Positions 1 through 38,786 of a stretch of 38,786 nucleotides of DNA are shown here, in pieces (the first letter of the stretch is position 1; every line of letters begins with the position of its first letter). A program made the translations under genes and the position numbers. The notes beneath the pieces were generated by a model, which saw only the letters and a list, made by a program, of their open reading frames with translations, was not told where the DNA came from and did no database searches. This DNA is from Ignavibacteriales bacterium (GTDB taxonomy: Bacteria > Bacteroidota > Ignavibacteria > Ignavibacteriales > Ignavibacteriaceae). Location: assembly GCA_016182615.1 (NCBI GenBank), contig JACPGF010000105.1, forward strand, positions 1 to 38,786. The letters run 5' to 3'.

Positions 1-2584
1 CCAGTATATCATATACCTTAAGTGTTACCTTACCGCTTTCGGCCAACTGATAATTTATAATAGTGCTTGGGTTAAACGGGTTGGGGTAGTTTTGCGCAAG
101 GGCAAACTGCAGATTAACGGCTACACTTATTTCCGACATAGCTGTTATCAGCCCAGTGTATTTTGCCTTAACAACATTTACCAACTCTTTCATTGGAACA
201 ATACTATTAATGTTGTTGCTGCCTTTAGCAATACAATACGCGTACACAAATTCTATAGTGTCGTTATGGTTAAAATTTCGGGAGCCAAATGCCATAAGAA
301 ATACCCGGTCATAGGGGGCTTGATTCCATCCACCACCTTCAAACCACCCGCTATGTGAAATGGGGTCGCCGGATAATACAAACTTTGTTTCATTGTTTCC
401 GGGATCCCTCACCGGGCTGCCATCCCAAAGTTTTCCATTTAAATTATTATACAGTTGAATACTACCTGCAGGAGAGCCTTGTGCCCAGAGTTTGTAAATT
501 GAGCTAAAATTTATGTACAAATTAAACGCTGATAAATGCATAGGCTTAAAGCCTTTCCTGAACCTGCCATCAAAAAAGGTACTATCCGATAAACTGCCTG
601 GCATTACAGGCGGCTGAACTGCATAATATCCCAGAGCCGGAGGTGTTTTTCCATACCCGTTAACACCAGCATCATCCCCATCACCATTGTATGTGAACCC
701 CAGATCGAGTGTTGTATCACAACCAGCATAATCATCGCTCGGGTCGCCCAAATCAGTATCAGCCCAAATGCCAATATAAAAATCTGCAATCGGGTTGTTT
801 CCTTTATTAATTAGCTTAACTTTTTTGAACAAAACATCTTTTAGATCACTGGAATTGACTCCAAATTCAGTAACCTGCATTTCTATACCCAGTGGCTGCA
901 TACCTGCAAAGAAAGCAGTCTTCATTGGGTTTAAATCGTTGGCAACATACCATGCAGTTTGTTCACCAAGTATTTTCGGTCTATCAATACCCGGTTCGTA
1001 GTTGCCATTTTGGTTTACATCTTCCCACGGTGCACCGAGTGCAACAGGCCAGTTGTTATAGTTTGATTCATAAATACTTCTTTCTATCCCGGGCTCTAAT
1101 TGCTCCCAGTCTTTTTTCAATCGCCAGACATAAAAATCAAGGTTGTTCGTATCAGCTGCCAATCCATTGCTCATAATATTGCCCGGCTGCAAACCCGAAC
1201 GGTATGCTGACCCACCCGTCCTGATTTCAGTTCCTACTTTTCCGCCCCACACGATACCATCCTGGTAAACCGCTGTCGAATTTGCATTTTTAGGCCAATG
1301 TAATCCGCTTGCATTGGTCGAAATATTGTGAGATGTTATTCCATTATTACATATGTAGTGGCTTATTTCATTCGGTCCAAACAAAAGTGCCGGTGAATTT
1401 ACCATCATCACAAATTCGGGAGATATTGCAGACCCGGAAGAACCCGTTAATCTCAATCGTGCTTTAAATGTATTGGCTACCCTGGGTAAAACTGTTCCGT
1501 TGGAGCTTGAAGGCAGATTATTTAGAACTGGCTCCCAATTCTGGCCATTATTTGTCGATAAGGATAAAGTTAAAGGCTCTGTAAATGTATAAGATGAAAA
1601 CCATGAAACAGTTATTGTTGATGTTGGTCCAAAACTGCTGTTCCTTATTGGGGTATCAAAATAAACGGCCGGTGTGCCCGAATTGTCAAACCGGTAGATA
1701 TTGTTCCCAGCAAAAATGCCGTTGTTTTCATCTAAAAATGCTGCGGCTAAAAATTTTTGGTTAATGTTTGGTTTGTTAAATTTTGTCCATGCCTGCCCAT
1801 TGTTATCTGTTTGGTATATATCATTTTCATCACAAATATATCCTTTGCCACCGCTAAACATTTGTAATTCCCTAAGGGTAATATCTGCCGCGAATTCATA
1901 CGTTAACCAGTTCAAACCACCATCAGTGGTACTCAATATGTTTTTTGTTCCCATGAACAAAGATCCGGTCATCTCATTAACAAAGGAAATATCAAGTATA
2001 GGTTTGGCAAGTGGTACTGTAATTGCGACCCATGTAAGTCCGCCATCGGTTGTTTTTAACAATTTACCGAGATTATCACCCGCAAAGCCAATCTGGGCAT
2101 TAAGGAAGAATACTGATTTTATTGTCTTACACGACGGCAATACAAGTTGCGAAAATGACTGGCCGCCATCAGTCGATTTTTTAATGATTCCGGAAATTGA
2201 GCCTCCATATAAATACAAATCATTTACTGTTGAAGCATAGAGATAAAAATTGCCACCCCCGTTTGTGTTGGTTTTCTGCAGCCATGTCTGCCCTCCATTG
2301 GTTGATTCGTAAAGCCAAGTCTGATCGGTAATATAAATTTTATTTATGTCCTTAGCGGCAAGACTGATCACTTTTGTTAAAGGCAGATTCACAATTTCAG
2401 TCCATGAAACCCCTTTGTCTGTTGTTGTTTCCATTATACCATTCCCAACAGTTATAACGGATGTATTGTTGCAGCTAACTGCTAAATTTTGCGGCGCTGG
2501 AGGATATGTTGCTATTGCAAACTGTGCAATAGATTTTACCGTTATTAGCAACGCAACAAGAATTTTTATAAAAACCCGATTCAT
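1..2584 (-). CDS. Secreted propeller protein with T9SS sorting domain (3' end cut by window)
   Basis: This gene is absent from the ORF track because it runs off the left edge. I read it from an ATG at 2584 on the minus strand, with a Shine-Dalgarno-like GGAG just upstream. The N-terminus MNRVFIKILVALLITVKSIAQ is a signal peptide. Ycf48/BNR-like repeats follow (TTDKGVSW, STNGGQTW, STDGGQSF), then a central region shared with the two neighbours (GIVWGG, GAPWEDVNQNGNYEPGID, DTDLGDPSDDYAGCD). It ends in NYPNPFNPST...VYDILG at the edge. About 861 codons are visible; by comparison with its paralogues about 52 residues are missing. I infer an exported, outer-membrane-translocated or surface-anchored protein. 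The substrate or ligand is unknown. It lies 63 bp downstream of its paralogue, probably in the same transcript. Confidence 0.85.
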   Translation of the reverse strand, partial: MNRVFIKILVALLITVKSIAQFAIATYPPAPQNLAVSCNNTSVITVGNGIMETTTDKGVSWTEIVNLPLTKVISLAAKDINKIYITDQTWLYESTNGGQTWLQKTNTNGGGNFYLYASTVNDLYLYGGSISGIIKKSTDGGQSFSQLVLPSCKTIKSVFFLNAQIGFAGDNLGKLLKTTDGGLTWVAITVPLAKPILDISFVNEMTGSLFMGTKNILSTTDGGLNWLTYEFAADITLRELQMFSGGKGYICDENDIYQTDNNGQAWTKFNKPNINQKFLAAAFLDENNGIFAGNNIYRFDNSGTPAVYFDTPIRNSSFGPTSTITVSWFSSYTFTEPLTLSLSTNNGQNWEPVLNNLPSSSNGTVLPRVANTFKARLRLTGSSGSAISPEFVMMVNSPALLFGPNEISHYICNNGITSHNISTNASGLHWPKNANSTAVYQDGIVWGGKVGTEIRTGGSAYRSGLQPGNIMSNGLAADTNNLDFYVWRLKKDWEQLEPGIERSIYESNYNNWPVALGAPWEDVNQNGNYEPGIDRPKILGEQTAWYVANDLNPMKTAFFAGMQPLGIEMQVTEFGVNSSDLKDVLFKKVKLINKGNNPIADFYIGIWADTDLGDPSDDYAGCDTTLDLGFTYNGDGDDAGVNGYGKTPPALGYYAVQPPVMPGSLSDSTFFDGRFRKGFKPMHLSAFNLYINFSSIYKLWAQGSPAGSIQLYNNLNGKLWDGSPVRDPGNNETKFVLSGDPISHSGWFEGGGWNQAPYDRVFLMAFGSRNFNHNDTIEFVYAYCIAKGSNNINSIVPMKELVNVVKAKYTGLITAMSEISVAVNLQFALAQNYPNPFNPSTIINYQLAESGKVTLKVYDIL

Positions 2585-2647
2585 ACAAATCTCCAATATT
2601 TCATTTTTCAAGTATCTAAAAATACTAATACTTTTATAAACTATGAG

Positions 2648-5392
2648 TTACTTCATCAACATCATTTTCTTAACAACACTGTTGGCACCAGCCTGCAGGC
2701 GGTAAAAATACACACCGCTTGCAAGTGTCTTTTTATCTGCCAAGGAAAACACCGCCTGATGCCTGCCTGCAGCCTGCTCCTCGTTAACAAGGGTTATCAC
2801 CTCGTTGCCCAGTATATCATATACCTTAAGTGTTACCTTACCGCTTTCGGCCAACTGATAATTTATAATAGTGCTTGGGTTAAACGGGTTGGGGTAGTTT
2901 TGCGCAAGGGTAAAACCACGTTGCGTAACTTTGTTGTCTTCCGCCGCGGTCAGTGTACTTACCGACAACGAATGATAATACGCCTGTGCGACCGGGACAA
3001 GCTCTTTCACCTTTTGAATAGCGTTCAAATTATTATCCGCACTGTCAATCAGAATTGCGTATGCAAATTCCTGTTTTTCACCGGGTGCAAATGAAAACGG
3101 GCCGCAGGAGATGAGCAGTCTTCGATCCCCGGGGGCATAACCAAATCTTCTCTCTGTCCATCCCTGATTAAGTACCGGATCCCCATCCAGTGGAAATGTA
3201 CTTGGCTGATTGGTGACTGGATTAATATATGCTGAGCCATTCCATGTTTTGCCATTTAAAAGATTATACAATTGCGGTGTACCCTCAGGTTTACCTATGG
3301 CAGAATCGGCAAACTGCGAACTTCCGTTGTAAAAAAAGCTGAAGGCTTTTAAAGGTAGATTTTTACGGCCTTTTCTCCATTGCCAGTTAAAGAATGCGCT
3401 ATCCTGAACTGCCCCGCTTTTTACAGGGCCTTGCATTAATGCATAGCCAACGGCAGGTGGCGTAAAGCCATAAGTACCATCATTTTGATCACCGTTATAA
3501 CAATAACCCAAATTCAAAGGCACATCGCATCCGACCCAATCATCATCTTTATCACCAATATCGGGATCAGAAAAAACTCCAAAAAACATCGAGTCAATCG
3601 CCATGCCGGACCGGTTCACCACTTCATATTTTTTAAAAACAACATTCTTTAAATTGGGTTCATTCGCGGCAAACATGCTGATACACACTTCAAGTCCTAT
3701 GGGCTGTGAGCCGTACAGTTTGTACGTTTTAACCGGGTCAAGATCGTTGGTAACTAACCACAGTGTTTCATCAGCAAGCACTCCGGGTTTATCTATACCC
3801 GCTGTAAATATCCCGTCGTGGTTCACATCTTTATACGGTGCACCCCAACCGACTGGCCAAGCCTCATAATCGTGCTGCAGCCTGCTTTTATTAATAGAAA
3901 CAGGTAATGCTTCCCAATTGTCTTTAATCCTCCACACGCCTGATTCAGGATCTGCCGGATCGGTTGCTGTCCCATTGGACAAAATGCGGCCCGATTGCAG
4001 CCCGGAATTATAGGTTACCCCGCCCGTAAGCATAGTACCGTTTTTAAAGCCGCCCCACACAACCCCATCTGCATATACAGATTTTTTACTGGCGGAAACT
4101 CCACCGGGCCAGAAAACTCCACCAACAGGCAATGCCGGGCTATTCCCGCTCATTCCATCTGCTGTCTGAAAAATTTTAACCTGGTTAACGGCCAGTGCAT
4201 TGGCTTTCCGGGGTTTTGTTGCTTGTACTGAGTCAACTACCCCAATTGGGAAAGATGGACGTGAGTCATCGAAAAACCGCACTGTGTAAAGTGTATCGCC
4301 AACAGTCAGCGGATAGGTGTTTTGTGTTGGAGGTATTCCCGAAGCAATAACACGCCAGGTTGCGCCGTTGGCAGCTTTATACTGCAACGAGATACTATTA
4401 ATAAAGGAACTGCTCCAGGCTAATGTTAACACGGTATCGGTAACAATACTTAAAGCCCGGTTTATTGCAAACAATGGCTCTGTTTTGTTATAATGACAAA
4501 GGATATTTATCCCGGTAACAATACCCCACGCCTGATTAAACCTCACAATTTTCTTTAATTGTCCGCCCGGCAATGATAAGGTAGTATCCCAGGAATTTCC
4601 CATATCAGCAGAAAAGGCAATGTGTTTATTTTCTCCCAAAGCCCATAATTCGGTACCATTCCAATGCAGATCCAGAATTGTCCCCGATGCAAAAATTTGC
4701 TTTTGCGCCCAGGTGTTTCCGCCATCGGTTGTTGTTGCAAGCTTACCTGCTACACAACCCAACCAGCCGCTTGTACTGTCCTTAAATTGCATGCTGGCAA
4801 CCCCGGTAGGCAGACCCTGAATTGATGACCAGTTCCATCCTCCATCCACAGTTTTAAACATCGTCGCACCCCCACGGATTATCCACCCATGAAGCCCGTC
4901 GGTAAAGGTAAGGGGGCTAGTCATTGTTACACTTCCCGAAATCGTATCAATTGCATTCCAGTTTAAACCAGCATCGGCTGTTTTATAAACATACGTTTTT
5001 AGACCAAAACCCCCTAATGCCCACACCGTATCTGCCGAAATTGCCGCCATAGAATACAAAGGCACATTTGAATTAAGTTTATACAATTGCCAGGATTCAC
5101 CGCCATCTGCTGTTTGATAAATACGACCCGAATCTGCTCCAACAAATCCATGCATGTTATCACTGAAGATCACTTTTTTGCCTGTTGCCGGGAAAAAACC
5201 CTTAGTATTCCATGTGCTCCCTCCATCGGTTGTTTTTAATACAGACAACCCAGCCGTGTTGGCTATTTGCCATCCTGTCTGCTCATTAAGAAAACAAGCA
5301 TCAACTGCTGCTGTTGGGATTGTTATCCACTGTCCCTGCATTGATACCACAAGCACAAAAAACACAATAAAAATATTTCTTACGATCCGCAT
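2648..5392 (-). CDS. Secreted Ycf48/BNR propeller protein with T9SS sorting domain
   Basis: The 914-residue protein starts with a signal peptide (MRIVRNIFIVFFVLVVSMQGQW). Residues about 30-290 hold six or so propeller-type repeats about 40 residues apart (TTDGGSTW, TADGGESW, TADAGLNW, TVDGGWNW, TTDGGNTW, SADMGNSW). A fibronectin-III-like stretch (about 305-385) follows, then a long central domain with Asp-rich loops (DVNHDGIFTAGID, DPDIGDKDDDWVGCD, YNGDQNDG) that resemble calcium-binding loops. The last 80 residues are a type A T9SS sorting domain (NYPNPFNPST, GVYFYRLQAG, KKMMLMK). The family is common in Ignavibacteria, but I know of no assigned function. It is the middle of three tandem paralogues, 43 bp after the next one upstream, and an operon is likely. 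No Shine-Dalgarno is visible. Confidence 0.93.
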   Translation of the reverse strand: MRIVRNIFIVFFVLVVSMQGQWITIPTAAVDACFLNEQTGWQIANTAGLSVLKTTDGGSTWNTKGFFPATGKKVIFSDNMHGFVGADSGRIYQTADGGESWQLYKLNSNVPLYSMAAISADTVWALGGFGLKTYVYKTADAGLNWNAIDTISGSVTMTSPLTFTDGLHGWIIRGGATMFKTVDGGWNWSSIQGLPTGVASMQFKDSTSGWLGCVAGKLATTTDGGNTWAQKQIFASGTILDLHWNGTELWALGENKHIAFSADMGNSWDTTLSLPGGQLKKIVRFNQAWGIVTGINILCHYNKTEPLFAINRALSIVTDTVLTLAWSSSFINSISLQYKAANGATWRVIASGIPPTQNTYPLTVGDTLYTVRFFDDSRPSFPIGVVDSVQATKPRKANALAVNQVKIFQTADGMSGNSPALPVGGVFWPGGVSASKKSVYADGVVWGGFKNGTMLTGGVTYNSGLQSGRILSNGTATDPADPESGVWRIKDNWEALPVSINKSRLQHDYEAWPVGWGAPYKDVNHDGIFTAGIDKPGVLADETLWLVTNDLDPVKTYKLYGSQPIGLEVCISMFAANEPNLKNVVFKKYEVVNRSGMAIDSMFFGVFSDPDIGDKDDDWVGCDVPLNLGYCYNGDQNDGTYGFTPPAVGYALMQGPVKSGAVQDSAFFNWQWRKGRKNLPLKAFSFFYNGSSQFADSAIGKPEGTPQLYNLLNGKTWNGSAYINPVTNQPSTFPLDGDPVLNQGWTERRFGYAPGDRRLLISCGPFSFAPGEKQEFAYAILIDSADNNLNAIQKVKELVPVAQAYYHSLSVSTLTAAEDNKVTQRGFTLAQNYPNPFNPSTIINYQLAESGKVTLKVYDILGNEVITLVNEEQAAGRHQAVFSLADKKTLASGVYFYRLQAGANSVVKKMMLMK

Positions 5393-5435
5393 AATTTTTC
5401 TACCAAATTAATTACACACTTAAAATTTTAGAATT

Positions 5436-8177
5436 TCACTTCATCAACAACATCTTTTTAACAACACTGTTGGCACCAGCCTGCAGGCGGTAAAAATACA
5501 CGCCGCTTGCAAGTGTCTTTTTATCTACCGAAGAAAACACCGCCTGATGCCTGCCTGCACGCTGTTCCTCGTTAACAAGGGTTATTACCTCGTTGCCCAG
5601 TATATCATATACTTTAAGTGTTACCTTACCGCTTTCGGCCAACTGATAATTTATGATAGTGCTTGGGTTAAACGGGTTGGGATAGTTTTGCTCAAGGGTA
5701 AAACCACGTTGAGCAGCTTTGTTATCTTCCACCGCGGTGATGGTGCTTACGGATAACGAATGATAATAAGCCTGTGCAACCGGGACCAGCTCCTTCATTT
5801 TTGTAATCGCGTTCAAATTATTATCCGCATTGTCAATCAGAATAGCGTATGCAAATTCCTGTTTTTCACCCGGTGCAAAAGAAATTGGGCCGCAAGAGAG
5901 TAGCATTCTTCTATCACCGGGACTAATTCCGGAACTTATTTCTGTCCAACCTGAACCTGTAACAGGGTCGCCATTATAAGGAAATACACTTGCTTGCTGA
6001 GTGAATGGATTAATATAGGGATTCCCGTTTGTTTTTTTACCCTTCAAAAGGTTATAAACCTGCATTGTGGCGGCAGGTGTACCTAGTTCAGGATCAGGAT
6101 CGAAATTAGAAAAATCTTGCATTTGATGGTAAGCAAATGATGTTATTAACATGTTTTTATTACCCCTGATCCATTCCCAATTGTAAAATGCACTGTCTTC
6201 CGGAAACCCTGCAATTTTGGGGCCTTGCACGATAGTATAGCCTACTGCCGGTGGAATTTGCCCGTAAGCAGTATCACGCCCATCACCATTATAGCAGTAT
6301 CCAAGACGTAATGAGGTATCACAACCAACGTAATCATCGCGGCCATCACCAACATCCGGGTCACTCCATGCTCCAAGATAGAGTGAATCAATTTGCGCTC
6401 CTGACCTGTTGAATAATTCATATTTTTTAAAAACTGTGTTTTTCAACGAGTCGTCTTTTGAGGCAAAAGAAGTGATCCTGACTTCAATACCCATCGGCTG
6501 AGAACCGAACAGGTTGTTTGTTTTAACCGGGTCAAGATCATTAGCAATTAACCATAATGTTTCATCACCAATTAAGCCGGGTTTATCTATGCCTGCATTA
6601 TATGTCCTGTCATGGTTTACATCTTCGTAAGGTGCTCCCCACTGAAACGGCCACGTGTTATAGTCCCATTGCAGCCGTGACTTTAAAATTGAAGCAGGTA
6701 AATTTTCCCAGTTCTTTTTAATCCGGTAAACGCCATTTTGCAAGTCGTTTGGATCGGTAGTAGTTCCGTTAGGTAAAATTCGTCCGGGTTGCATACCGGA
6801 TCGGTGAGTTACTCCGCCTGAATGAAGCACTCCATTTTTATACCCGCCCCAGATTAAACCGTCAGCAAAGACAATGGTTTTATTTGCATTTGCACCACCC
6901 GGCCAATAAGTGCCTGCATATACTGCACCGACACCACGCTGGCTCATGGCCTCTCTGTTCTGATATACTTTCACTTGATTTGCAGCGAGTATGTTAATCT
7001 TTCTACTGCTGACTGCTGTAACTGAATCAATAAAAGCAACAGGTGTGCCCGGCCTGCTTACATCAATAAAACGGAATGTGTACATAGAATCGGCAATTGA
7101 ACATGAAAATGTGTTTTGCGCTGGAGCAAGCCCTGATGCGGCTGTTATCCAGTTACTGCTATTATTAACCGAATACTGAATAGTTATCCCGTTGATGAGC
7201 GAACTATTCCAGTCAAAAGTAACAACAGTATCTTCTACTGAAGTATATACTAATTGAAATTGGGGAGTAGTCGGGTTGTAGTAATATAATCCGGCAGGAG
7301 AAGTTACAAATCCGGATGTCCTATTAAAGTGGACAAATTTACTAATGCCCGAATCTGGCAGATGCATCGTGGTGTCCCATGAATGTCCCAAATCCGAAGA
7401 AACGGCAATGTGTTTATTTTCACCTAAGGCCCACAAGTCAGTGCCATTCCAATGAATATCCAAAACTGCTTCTGTGCCCCAAATTTGTTTCTGCACCCAG
7501 TTTAACCCGCCATCAGTTGTTTTTGCAATTTTCCCGGCTTTACAGCCGAGCCAGCCGGTCAGACTGTCCTTAAACTGCATTCCGCCGCCATCAACAGGAA
7601 CAGCTTGAATAATACTCCAGTTTTCACCACCGTCAACTGTCCTATAAAAAGCCCCCGGGCGGTATACCCAGCCATGACGGCTGTCTGCAAAAACAAATGG
7701 TTTTGCGAAAGAAGTCATTTGGGGAATGGTATCTATCGAATTCCAGTTATTTCCACTATCTGTACTTCTGAATACAATTGATTTGATACCGAAATTTCCG
7801 AGTGCCCACAATGTATTAACACCGTACGAGGCAAACTCGAATATCGGATAATTGTAAGTGAGTTTTATAATTTGCCAGGACTCACCGCCATTTGTCGTCC
7901 GGAAGATACGACCGGAATCGGCACCGACATAGCCATTATTTATATCTGTAAACAAAATTTGTTTCCCGGCAGCTGGATAATAAAATTTCAATTGCCAGGA
8001 AATACCGGCATCGGTGGTTTTATATACCCAAAGATCTATATCAGAAGCTAAGGCCCATCCGGTTTGTTCATTTGCAAAGCAAATCTTCTGGGATGGCGCA
8101 ACCAAAGGCATCCATTGGCTATATGCAGAAGTGCATAATAATAAGGCTAGTATAAACAGAAGTGTAAGTTTTTGCAT
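5436..8177 (-). CDS. Secreted Ycf48/BNR propeller protein with T9SS sorting domain
   Basis: This 913-residue paralogue is the first gene of the tandem trio in transcription order. It has a signal peptide (MQKLTLLFILALLLCTSAYSQW), repeats TTDAGISW, TTNGGESW, STDSGNNW, TVDGGENW, TTDGGLNW and SSDLGHSW, a fibronectin-like stretch, then the same central domain as its neighbour (DVNHDRTYNAGID, DPDVGDGRDDYVGCD, YNGDGRDTAYG). The sorting domain ends KKMLLMK. It is clearly homologous to the 914-residue protein throughout, but the last 80-100 residues are far closer than the rest, and the last 161 bases align without gaps. Its start is the ATG at 8177, facing lepA across 285 bp. Its role is unknown; an exported cell-surface protein is inferred. 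Confidence 0.93.
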   Translation of the reverse strand: MQKLTLLFILALLLCTSAYSQWMPLVAPSQKICFANEQTGWALASDIDLWVYKTTDAGISWQLKFYYPAAGKQILFTDINNGYVGADSGRIFRTTNGGESWQIIKLTYNYPIFEFASYGVNTLWALGNFGIKSIVFRSTDSGNNWNSIDTIPQMTSFAKPFVFADSRHGWVYRPGAFYRTVDGGENWSIIQAVPVDGGGMQFKDSLTGWLGCKAGKIAKTTDGGLNWVQKQIWGTEAVLDIHWNGTDLWALGENKHIAVSSDLGHSWDTTMHLPDSGISKFVHFNRTSGFVTSPAGLYYYNPTTPQFQLVYTSVEDTVVTFDWNSSLINGITIQYSVNNSSNWITAASGLAPAQNTFSCSIADSMYTFRFIDVSRPGTPVAFIDSVTAVSSRKINILAANQVKVYQNREAMSQRGVGAVYAGTYWPGGANANKTIVFADGLIWGGYKNGVLHSGGVTHRSGMQPGRILPNGTTTDPNDLQNGVYRIKKNWENLPASILKSRLQWDYNTWPFQWGAPYEDVNHDRTYNAGIDKPGLIGDETLWLIANDLDPVKTNNLFGSQPMGIEVRITSFASKDDSLKNTVFKKYELFNRSGAQIDSLYLGAWSDPDVGDGRDDYVGCDTSLRLGYCYNGDGRDTAYGQIPPAVGYTIVQGPKIAGFPEDSAFYNWEWIRGNKNMLITSFAYHQMQDFSNFDPDPELGTPAATMQVYNLLKGKKTNGNPYINPFTQQASVFPYNGDPVTGSGWTEISSGISPGDRRMLLSCGPISFAPGEKQEFAYAILIDNADNNLNAITKMKELVPVAQAYYHSLSVSTITAVEDNKAAQRGFTLEQNYPNPFNPSTIINYQLAESGKVTLKVYDILGNEVITLVNEEQRAGRHQAVFSSVDKKTLASGVYFYRLQAGANSVVKKMLLMK

Positions 8178-8345
8178 AAAAGATTCCCAGTATGTTTAAC
8201 TACAATATAAAAGTATCAATCAATCGCGTTTTCCAGTTCCATTTGTTCTTATCCGCAACCCCTAACGTAAGCATGGTATGGGGTTAATAATGTAAAAACA
8301 AATCCGCTTCTTAAATATAATAATTAAATTACAAAATATTACCCT

Positions 8346-33556: not shown

Positions 33557-33828
33557 GTTGACAGCATTGCTTTTTTTACCCCAAAAGTAGTTGAAGACAG
33601 CACTGCTTTTTTACCCCGAAGGGGTTAAATCTCAATAACCGCGGGTTTCTTACCCGCGGAACAAAAACAAACATATTTTCGTCCCCGAACGGGGGCGAAC
33701 CTTATGTAGATTAATAGATATCTTCACCTATTCGGAAATAACGTGAACAATTGCAATAAATTTCAGAAAATAGAAATTCTTAGCAACTAAGCATTGCGGT
33801 TCGCCCCCTTCGGGGCAATGCTGTCAAC
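33557..33828. repeat. 272-bp segment bounded by a 14-bp perfect inverted repeat
   Basis: GTTGACAGCATTGC (33557-33570) is exactly inverted at 33815-33828. Between them lie several GC-rich mini-hairpins and no ORF. A second, degenerate copy of the left end (GACAGCACTGC) follows 33 bp inside. This is compatible with a non-autonomous mobile element. I see no flanking target duplication that I trust. Confidence 0.6.
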
Positions 33829-33856
33829 TTAAGGAAAAAAGTTGCGCAAAGTTTCC

Positions 33857-33990
33857 AAGTCCCTCCTTTTTGAAAGGAGGGTGGATCGCTTTAGCGAGAC
33901 GGGAGAATTGTTTTAGCGGCATTGGCACTGCCTAAAAACGATTCCCCCGCTTCGCCGCGGCGAACAACCCCTTTTCAAAAAGGGGGACTT
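33857..33990. repeat. 134-bp multi-hairpin palindromic element (MITE/REP-like or structured RNA)
   Basis: The ends AAGTCCC... and ...GGGGACTT are complementary, and the whole element folds on itself. Hairpin 1 is CCCTCCTTT-TTG-AAAGGAGGG (33861-33881), hairpin 2 is TCGC-TTTA-GCGA, and the central stem is CGGGAGAATTGTTTTAG paired imperfectly with CTAAAAACGATTCCCCCG. Hairpin 4 is TTCGCC-GC-GGCGAA (33951-33964) and hairpin 5 is CCCCTTTT-CA-AAAAGGGG (33968-33985). The left and right halves mirror each other, giving a cloverleaf-like symmetric fold. No ORF is inside. Confidence 0.75.
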
Positions 33991-34238
33991 CGGAAAAACC
34001 ATTTTTATAATTTTGTCAATCCTTAAGTTGTTTCGCCGCGGCGAACCTTCGCAAGGAGAGGGGTCTGCAACTGTATGTTATTGAAGAGGTTACTATCTTC
34101 CTGCGATTGTAATGCATTATTGGGGTTAAATGTTGCTCGGTTTGTTCATTTCTTGTTCGTTAAGGGATTGGAATAAAACAAGTAGCATCTATAAGGAATA
34201 ATAATTTAATCTGAGTTTAGTTTATCGTCTATAATTAA

Positions 34239-38537: not shown

Positions 38538-38786
38538 CTATAACTCATCCTCGTCGGCAAGGTCTTCGTCGTCGTCATCGAAATCGAAGTCTTCGTCTTC
38601 GAGATCATCTTCGTCAAAGTCCTCGTCATCAAAATCGCTGTCGAAGTCTTCATCATCGAAATCTTCGTCGTCTTCATCATCTTCGTCAAGGTCATCGTCA
38701 TCAAAGTCGTCGTCGTCCTCGTCCAAATCATCGTCGAGTTCATCATCGTCTAAATCTTCTTCGTCTTCAAAGTCATCATCATCATC
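38538..38786 (-). CDS. Extremely acidic Asp/Glu-rich protein, C-terminal part (5' end beyond window)
   Basis: The track shows 62 residues from a TTG, but the frame is open to the right edge, so 82 residues of a longer protein are visible. It is almost only Asp and Glu with Phe/Leu spaced every few residues (DDFDDDDLDEDDEDDEDF, FDEDDLEDEDFDFDDDDED) and ends LADEDEL. This is either an acidic tail of a larger protein (for example a nucleic-acid-related or ribosome-associated one) or a small calcium- or cation-binding protein; the visible part cannot decide. The overlapping Met/Thr-rich frame is a shadow of the GAT/GAC/GAA repeats. Its terminator follows at once. Confidence 0.75.
   Translation of the reverse strand, partial: DDDDDFEDEEDLDDDELDDDLDEDDDDFDDDDLDEDDEDDEDFDDEDFDSDFDDEDFDEDDLEDEDFDFDDDDEDLADEDEL

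Follow-up and report, generated by a model that had tools for sequence, protein, structure and literature searches.

The nested palindrome at positions 33857-33990 of the window (the whole 38,786-nucleotide stretch of Ignavibacteriales DNA analysed here) is very probably the core of a MITE that is mobilised in trans by a multi-copy IS4-family IS of the same genome. We favour this reading because the MITE and the IS have common terminal repeats, because 9-bp target-site duplications are seen for both, and because the identical-ended IS is present in multiple copies in the same genome; it bears out one of three possibilities raised in the original prediction, a MITE-like insertion mobilised in trans. 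As a MITE this is an ordinary kind of element belonging to a new family, and a striking multi-hairpin sequence is thereby explained as ordinary mobile DNA and linked to one particular IS with ends that are found across many bacterial phyla. The part worth following is its modular hairpins, above all the 14-bp palindrome TTCGCCGCGGCGAA.

The 134-mer is almost self-complementary and contains five local hairpins (CCCTCCTTTTTGAAAGGAGGG, TCGCTTTAGCGA, GGCATTGGCACTGCC, TTCGCCGCGGCGAA and CCCCTTTTCAAAAAGGGG). Folded as RNA it reaches -72.8 kcal/mol, compared with a shuffle mean of -40.7 +/- 3.8 kcal/mol (z -8.4; 0 of 200 shuffles were equally good), and folded as DNA it gives a z of -6.2, so the symmetric five-hairpin element first noticed from the letters is real. 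No ORF of at least 90 aa runs across the 134-mer, in line with the lack of coding capacity claimed for it. The whole 230-nt element folds to -99.7 kcal/mol (z -8.1), the fold taking in the outer inverted repeats (33816 and 34031), and the boundaries originally predicted are therefore right for the core but too narrow for the element, which comparison of copies places at about 33816 to 34045 (no strand assigned). Its neighbours, identified with Pfam as an MFS transporter gene and a galactose-1-phosphate uridylyltransferase (galT)-type gene, are both on the plus strand and are separated by the 0.8 kb in which it lies.

Read from the left, the element opens with the terminal inverted repeat CAATGCTGTCAACTTAAGG (33816-33834, plus strand; family consensus CAATGGTGTCAACTTAAGG), the end common to the contig-edge IS described below and to copies with target-site duplications. 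The core (33857-33990, no strand assigned) consists of two mutually complementary arms that also bear the local hairpins, as seen in the fold and in an alignment of 18 full-length copies. Hairpin 1 in the left arm (CCCTCCTTTTTGAAAGGAGGG, 33861-33881, plus strand) is conserved among copies and is followed by hairpin 2, which is slot 1 (TCGCTTTAGCGA, 33885-33896, plus strand; copy L003 has CCCGCCTAGGCGGG instead), and by the central hairpin GCGGCATTGGCACTGCC (33916-33932, give or take a base or two, plus strand), supported by sequence, fold and copy alignment. Hairpin 4, or slot 3, is the mini-palindrome TTCGCCGCGGCGAA itself (33951-33964, no strand assigned), supported by the copy alignment and by counts of the 14-mer and replaced in other copies by GCCCTTCGGGC, GGCCTTCGGCC, GGTTTACC or GGCTCGCCGCGGCGAGCC, and hairpin 5 in the right arm is CCCCTTTTCAAAAAGGGG (33968-33985, plus strand). 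Of the right terminal inverted repeat, sequence, copy comparison and fold place the inner part (CCTTAAGTTGT) at 34021-34031 on the minus strand, and the outermost 8 nt (CACCATTG) are replaced by a second TTCGCCGCGGCGAA copy at 34032-34045 (no strand assigned).

When the own genome of the window was searched (5.1 Mb in 489 contigs, 89.8% complete), full or partial copies turned up at roughly 50 distinct places, including 18 distinct copies of full length, so the 134-mer is not unique. The matches reach 95% identity over most of their length. No copies are present in the sole other genome of the genus, which is 99% complete, and other genomes of the order match almost only over the outer ends. 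One of these, G082, shares an identical stretch with a named Melioribacteraceae MAG (L105 and L189), by which the order is identified as Ignavibacteriales. Placement was intergenic for 27 of 28 checked copies, with tandem, convergent and divergent neighbours alike. The element is short (230 bp), without an ORF across it and multi-copy, as a MITE should be.

Comparison of the copies defines an outer layer of the form CAATGGTGTCAACTTAAG ... CTTAAGTTGACACCATTG (in the window, left end 33816-33834 and right end 34021-34031). Intact copies carry the terminal inverted repeat CAATG(G/C)TGTCAACTTAAG on both sides, and a literature search for this repeat returned no match. The CAATG..CATTG ends are flanked by 9-bp direct repeats, exactly so in GATTTATCC (L012), CCTGAACCG (L014), CCATGCACC (L072) and CTGTTAAAG (L067) and with one mismatch in other cases. 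Within the own genome, 7 of 12 intact end pairs match at 8 or more of the 9 flanking positions, versus 0.8% for left flanks set against right flanks from other copies, and the search for target-site duplications called for at the outset thus gave a fixed length of 9 bp for the family. The flanks of the window copy (CCTTCGGGG vs CCTTCGCAA) match at 6 of 9 positions and form no clean duplication; on this account, and because its right terminus has been replaced by TTCGCCGCGGCGAA, the copy is probably immobile. More generally, a MITE end replaced by TTCGCCGCGGCGAA is predicted to be dead, as against CAATGGTG.. ends. In L003 and L017 the outer flanks are mutually inverted copies with no direct duplication (in L017, CCTTTAGAAGG ... 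CCTTCTAAAGG), a pattern that suggests homogenisation between the inverted arms.

The candidate partner emerged at the edges of the assembly, where contigs of the own genome stop some 130 bp into a repeat that ends exactly in CAATGGTGTCAACTTAAGG. These ten contig-edge sites, seven with an X (left-type) and three with a Y (right-type) end, share identical 19-nt ends, so that the MITE has its ends in common with a putatively autonomous element of the same genome. Each of the three Y flanks recurs as an X flank in the form of an exact 9-bp duplication (CTGTTAACC, CCCTCATTC and CCCTTCGGG); this is the decisive point, and X and Y are thus opposite ends of a single multi-copy IS that has the ends and the duplication length of the MITE. 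The Y end encodes a 35-aa C-terminus, LKIIQRLVIPERPGRVYERKPKCAMKFHLNQRRVA, resembling the C-termini of same-ended IS4 transposases, a likeness that is weak when taken alone (tblastn E 0.1 to 0.5). The search for a transposase with matching ends thus led to this IS, but of its putative transposase only the last 35 codons are seen, the IS interior being absent from the assembly. Searching the own genome with the whole L192 and L103 transposase proteins gave nothing convincing, which fits an unassembled IS interior. In the third X/Y pair (L023 and L066, contig ends C312 and C393) the partner IS appears to have inserted into the slot-3 hairpin of a different MITE copy, with the hairpin sequence CCCTTCGGG as its target duplication.

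Two other candidates for the partner were set aside. The IS4-family element at L039 (C36 of G000) is a different one, 1427 bp long with an intact transposase frame, and adjoins a CCCCTCCGGGGCGC repeat array; its ends, CATAGGCGTCAACTTAAA, are related and not identical, making it a less likely partner than the multi-copy IS at the contig edges. The DUF559 (PF04480) gene exists as a single broken copy in the genome, and its locus had no match to the core by the search used.

The same ends recur well beyond this genome. The exact 18-mer end was found in at least 88 stretches from many phyla, including Chlamydiae, Legionella, Cardinium, Verrucomicrobia, cyanobacteria and Ignavibacteriales, among others. 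For 31 short end pairs drawn from this multi-phylum set and from order-level loci, and compared on ends and flanks, 11 had a duplication matching at 8 or more of 9 positions, against 1.4% expected. A Waddliaceae MAG has a 423-aa transposase between two exact ends spaced 1357 bp apart, and one genome of the family to which the window belongs has a 422-aa transposase between TAATGCTGTCAACTTAAG ends; both proteins score above the NCBIfam IS4 cut-off of NF033592 (147.9 and 150.9 bits vs 115).

Taken at the level of sequence, movement of the MITE is most likely the work of the transposase of the multi-copy IS. This DDE transposase would recognise the shared terminal repeat CAATGGTGTCAACTTAAGG, excise the MITE and then insert it with a 9-bp target-site duplication. 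The near-perfect palindrome stems from the long inverted arms, and the small hairpin modules within them, including the 14-bp TTCGCCGCGGCGAA, are replaced as units, a pattern that may be due to template switching between the inverted arms or to the action of a very small mobile repeat.

Alignment of the 18 full copies shows conserved long arms and three slots whose contents change all at once. Slot 1 holds either TCGCTTTAGCGA or CCCGCCTAGGCGGG; the second slot has GACG, or AAAGCTTGTCCCAATGGGA with a hairpin of its own; and slot 3 is occupied by GCTTCGCCGCGGCGAAC, GCCCTTCGGGC, GGCCTTCGGCC, GGTTTACC or GGCTCGCCGCGGCGAGCC. Most of the common slot alleles are locally self-complementary and have lost their match to the opposite arm, so what persists is the local hairpin. 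Taken singly, short alleles like CCCTTCGGG do not reach significance by shuffle, and the argument lies in the allele series. The wholesale exchange of local hairpins between copies is the unusual feature of this element.

This bears directly on the idea of selection for the fold. The pairing-preserving T/C and A/G exchanges cited in its favour are indeed present, but they do not signal selection at the RNA level, as both strands are equally favourable; the local hairpins are preserved by the swapping of whole modules, for which a process at the DNA level would account equally well. We consider it very unlikely that the element is a structured RNA (a regulatory RNA, terminator or mRNA stabiliser) whose fold is kept by selection on the transcript. 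The fold is very stable and some slot alleles have CTTCGG-type loops, as such an RNA might, yet the plus and minus strands differ by a mean of 0.07 kcal/mol, with the plus strand better in 9 of the 18 copies, and this equality argues against selection on one RNA strand. An Rfam search returned no match near threshold, no terminator-like or promoter-like site lies inside the element, and copies sit between tandem, convergent and divergent genes without distinction.

Slighter still is the chance that we are dealing with a REP/BIME-like palindrome dispersed by a RAYT (TnpA-REP, Y1_Tnp) transposase, the remaining suggestion of the original prediction. Several Y1_Tnp genes are present in the genome, and the element is palindromic, intergenic and multi-copy; these Y1_Tnp loci, however, contain no copy of it, and the IS4-type terminal inverted repeats and 9-bp target duplications are features that REPs lack. 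It is also improbable, if a little less so than either of these, that inverted repeats recombining or undergoing gene conversion, and not transposition, were the main means by which the core spread, with the terminal repeats incidental. Partial and mosaic copies are numerous, and the inverted flanks of L003 and L017 are what arm homogenisation predicts, but several copies have clean 9-bp direct duplications within unrelated flanks. Mobilisation of the MITE in trans by the multi-copy IS thus remains our preferred reading.

The 14-mer TTCGCCGCGGCGAA occurs 25 times in the own genome, compared with none for the reversed control, and its sites there are slot 3 and the outer end of the element. In 9 own-genome sequences, including the right side of the window element, the terminal repeat has TTCGCCGCGGCGAA or a near variant in place of its final 8 nt. 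Across the order it is present in 32 of 164 genomes, with none in the same-genus genome, and in other Ignavibacteriales genomes it is found in unrelated contexts (loci L214-L231 and L244-L283; the window sites are 33951-33964 and 34032-34045). A literature search for the 14-mer gave no match.

Filled and empty versions of such sites could be compared in several genomes. In tRNA T-arm sequence, GGTTCAA[GTC]C.G becomes GGTTCAA[TTCGCCGCGGCGAA]C.G in G059, G022, G071 and G015, cases that may include duplicates of one event. Six times in G074, TGTGA[AAT, ACT or GCT]GTGAA is changed to TGTGA[TTCGCCGCGGCGAA]GTGAA, and once TCCGCCGTAGGCGGA takes this place; in G059 the ATT between GATGCTGAAATGA and CAGCATGAC is exchanged for TTCGCCGCGGCGAA. 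The exchange is of 3 nt for 14 nt in every comparable filled/empty case. What we take to be a valyl-tRNA synthetase frame in G036 (L221, about position 1501) has the 14-mer shortly after its start (MTETN-SPRR-TEIPKAYDPS). TTCGC stem-loops top the G+C-containing stem-loops in the two genomes sampled, with 15 vs 1.5 expected in the own genome and 12 vs 0.5 in G059. An inverted repeat of at least 6 nt flanks TTCGCCGCGGCGAA at 9 of 52 sites (3.4% by chance), but nearly all of these are in G059, and we therefore do not claim a preference for hairpin loops as a rule.

We put forward tentatively, as a possibility falling somewhat short of an even chance, that the MITE hairpins are themselves mobile units and that TTCGCCGCGGCGAA and its relatives TTCGCCNN(N)GGCGAA and TCCGCCGTAGGCGGA spread by replacing exactly 3 nt at unrelated Ignavibacteriales sites, including the tRNA T-arm, and also in the MITE terminus and loop slots. 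If this is true, TTCGCCGCGGCGAA would rank with the smallest known modules of mobile DNA. The spread of very small palindromic repeats is an old open question in bacteria, and the filled and empty sites, with their 3-nt to 14-nt exchange in several genomes, offer a testable route to it.

Prokaryotic MITEs, including Chunjie from Geobacter uraniireducens and QMITE2 from Coxiella burnetii, have been reviewed (PMC10969869). The window element resembles these two in being non-coding and of about 180-240 bp, with terminal inverted repeats and short direct repeats, a stable fold, derivation from an IS, and dozens of intergenic copies alongside truncated ones. It differs from them in that its arms hold discrete mini-hairpin slots whose contents are exchanged between copies. 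MITECca01 of Cardinium, about 240 bp long, likewise has ends in common with a resident IS, but the parent there is IS982 (ISCca4; PMC9769881) and not IS4. With the IS4 family (NCBIfam NF033592, Pfam DDE_Tnp_1) the element shares 9-bp target duplications and ends that surround IS4 transposases elsewhere; unlike members of that family it has no transposase, and the interior of its partner IS is missing from the assembly. For TTCGCCGCGGCGAA the nearest precedent would appear, by analogy, to be the very small dispersed repeats of cyanobacteria (SDR5 and others; Elhai et al. 2008), which, going by the accounts that cite them (PMC3116915, PMC4390886), are very short repeats set precisely within other sequences and repeats. 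As far as those accounts go, TTCGCCGCGGCGAA would differ from these repeats in being a perfect palindrome of 14 bp that takes the place of 3 nt, and in its occurrence in Ignavibacteriales.

Elsewhere in the window, positions 1-8300 contain long direct repeats at a spacing of about 2.79 kb (2650-2949 and 5438-5737, for instance, are 93% identical), which are probably tandem paralogous genes or domains. At the contig end, positions 38548-38784 comprise a low-complexity repeat of the TCATCGTC type.
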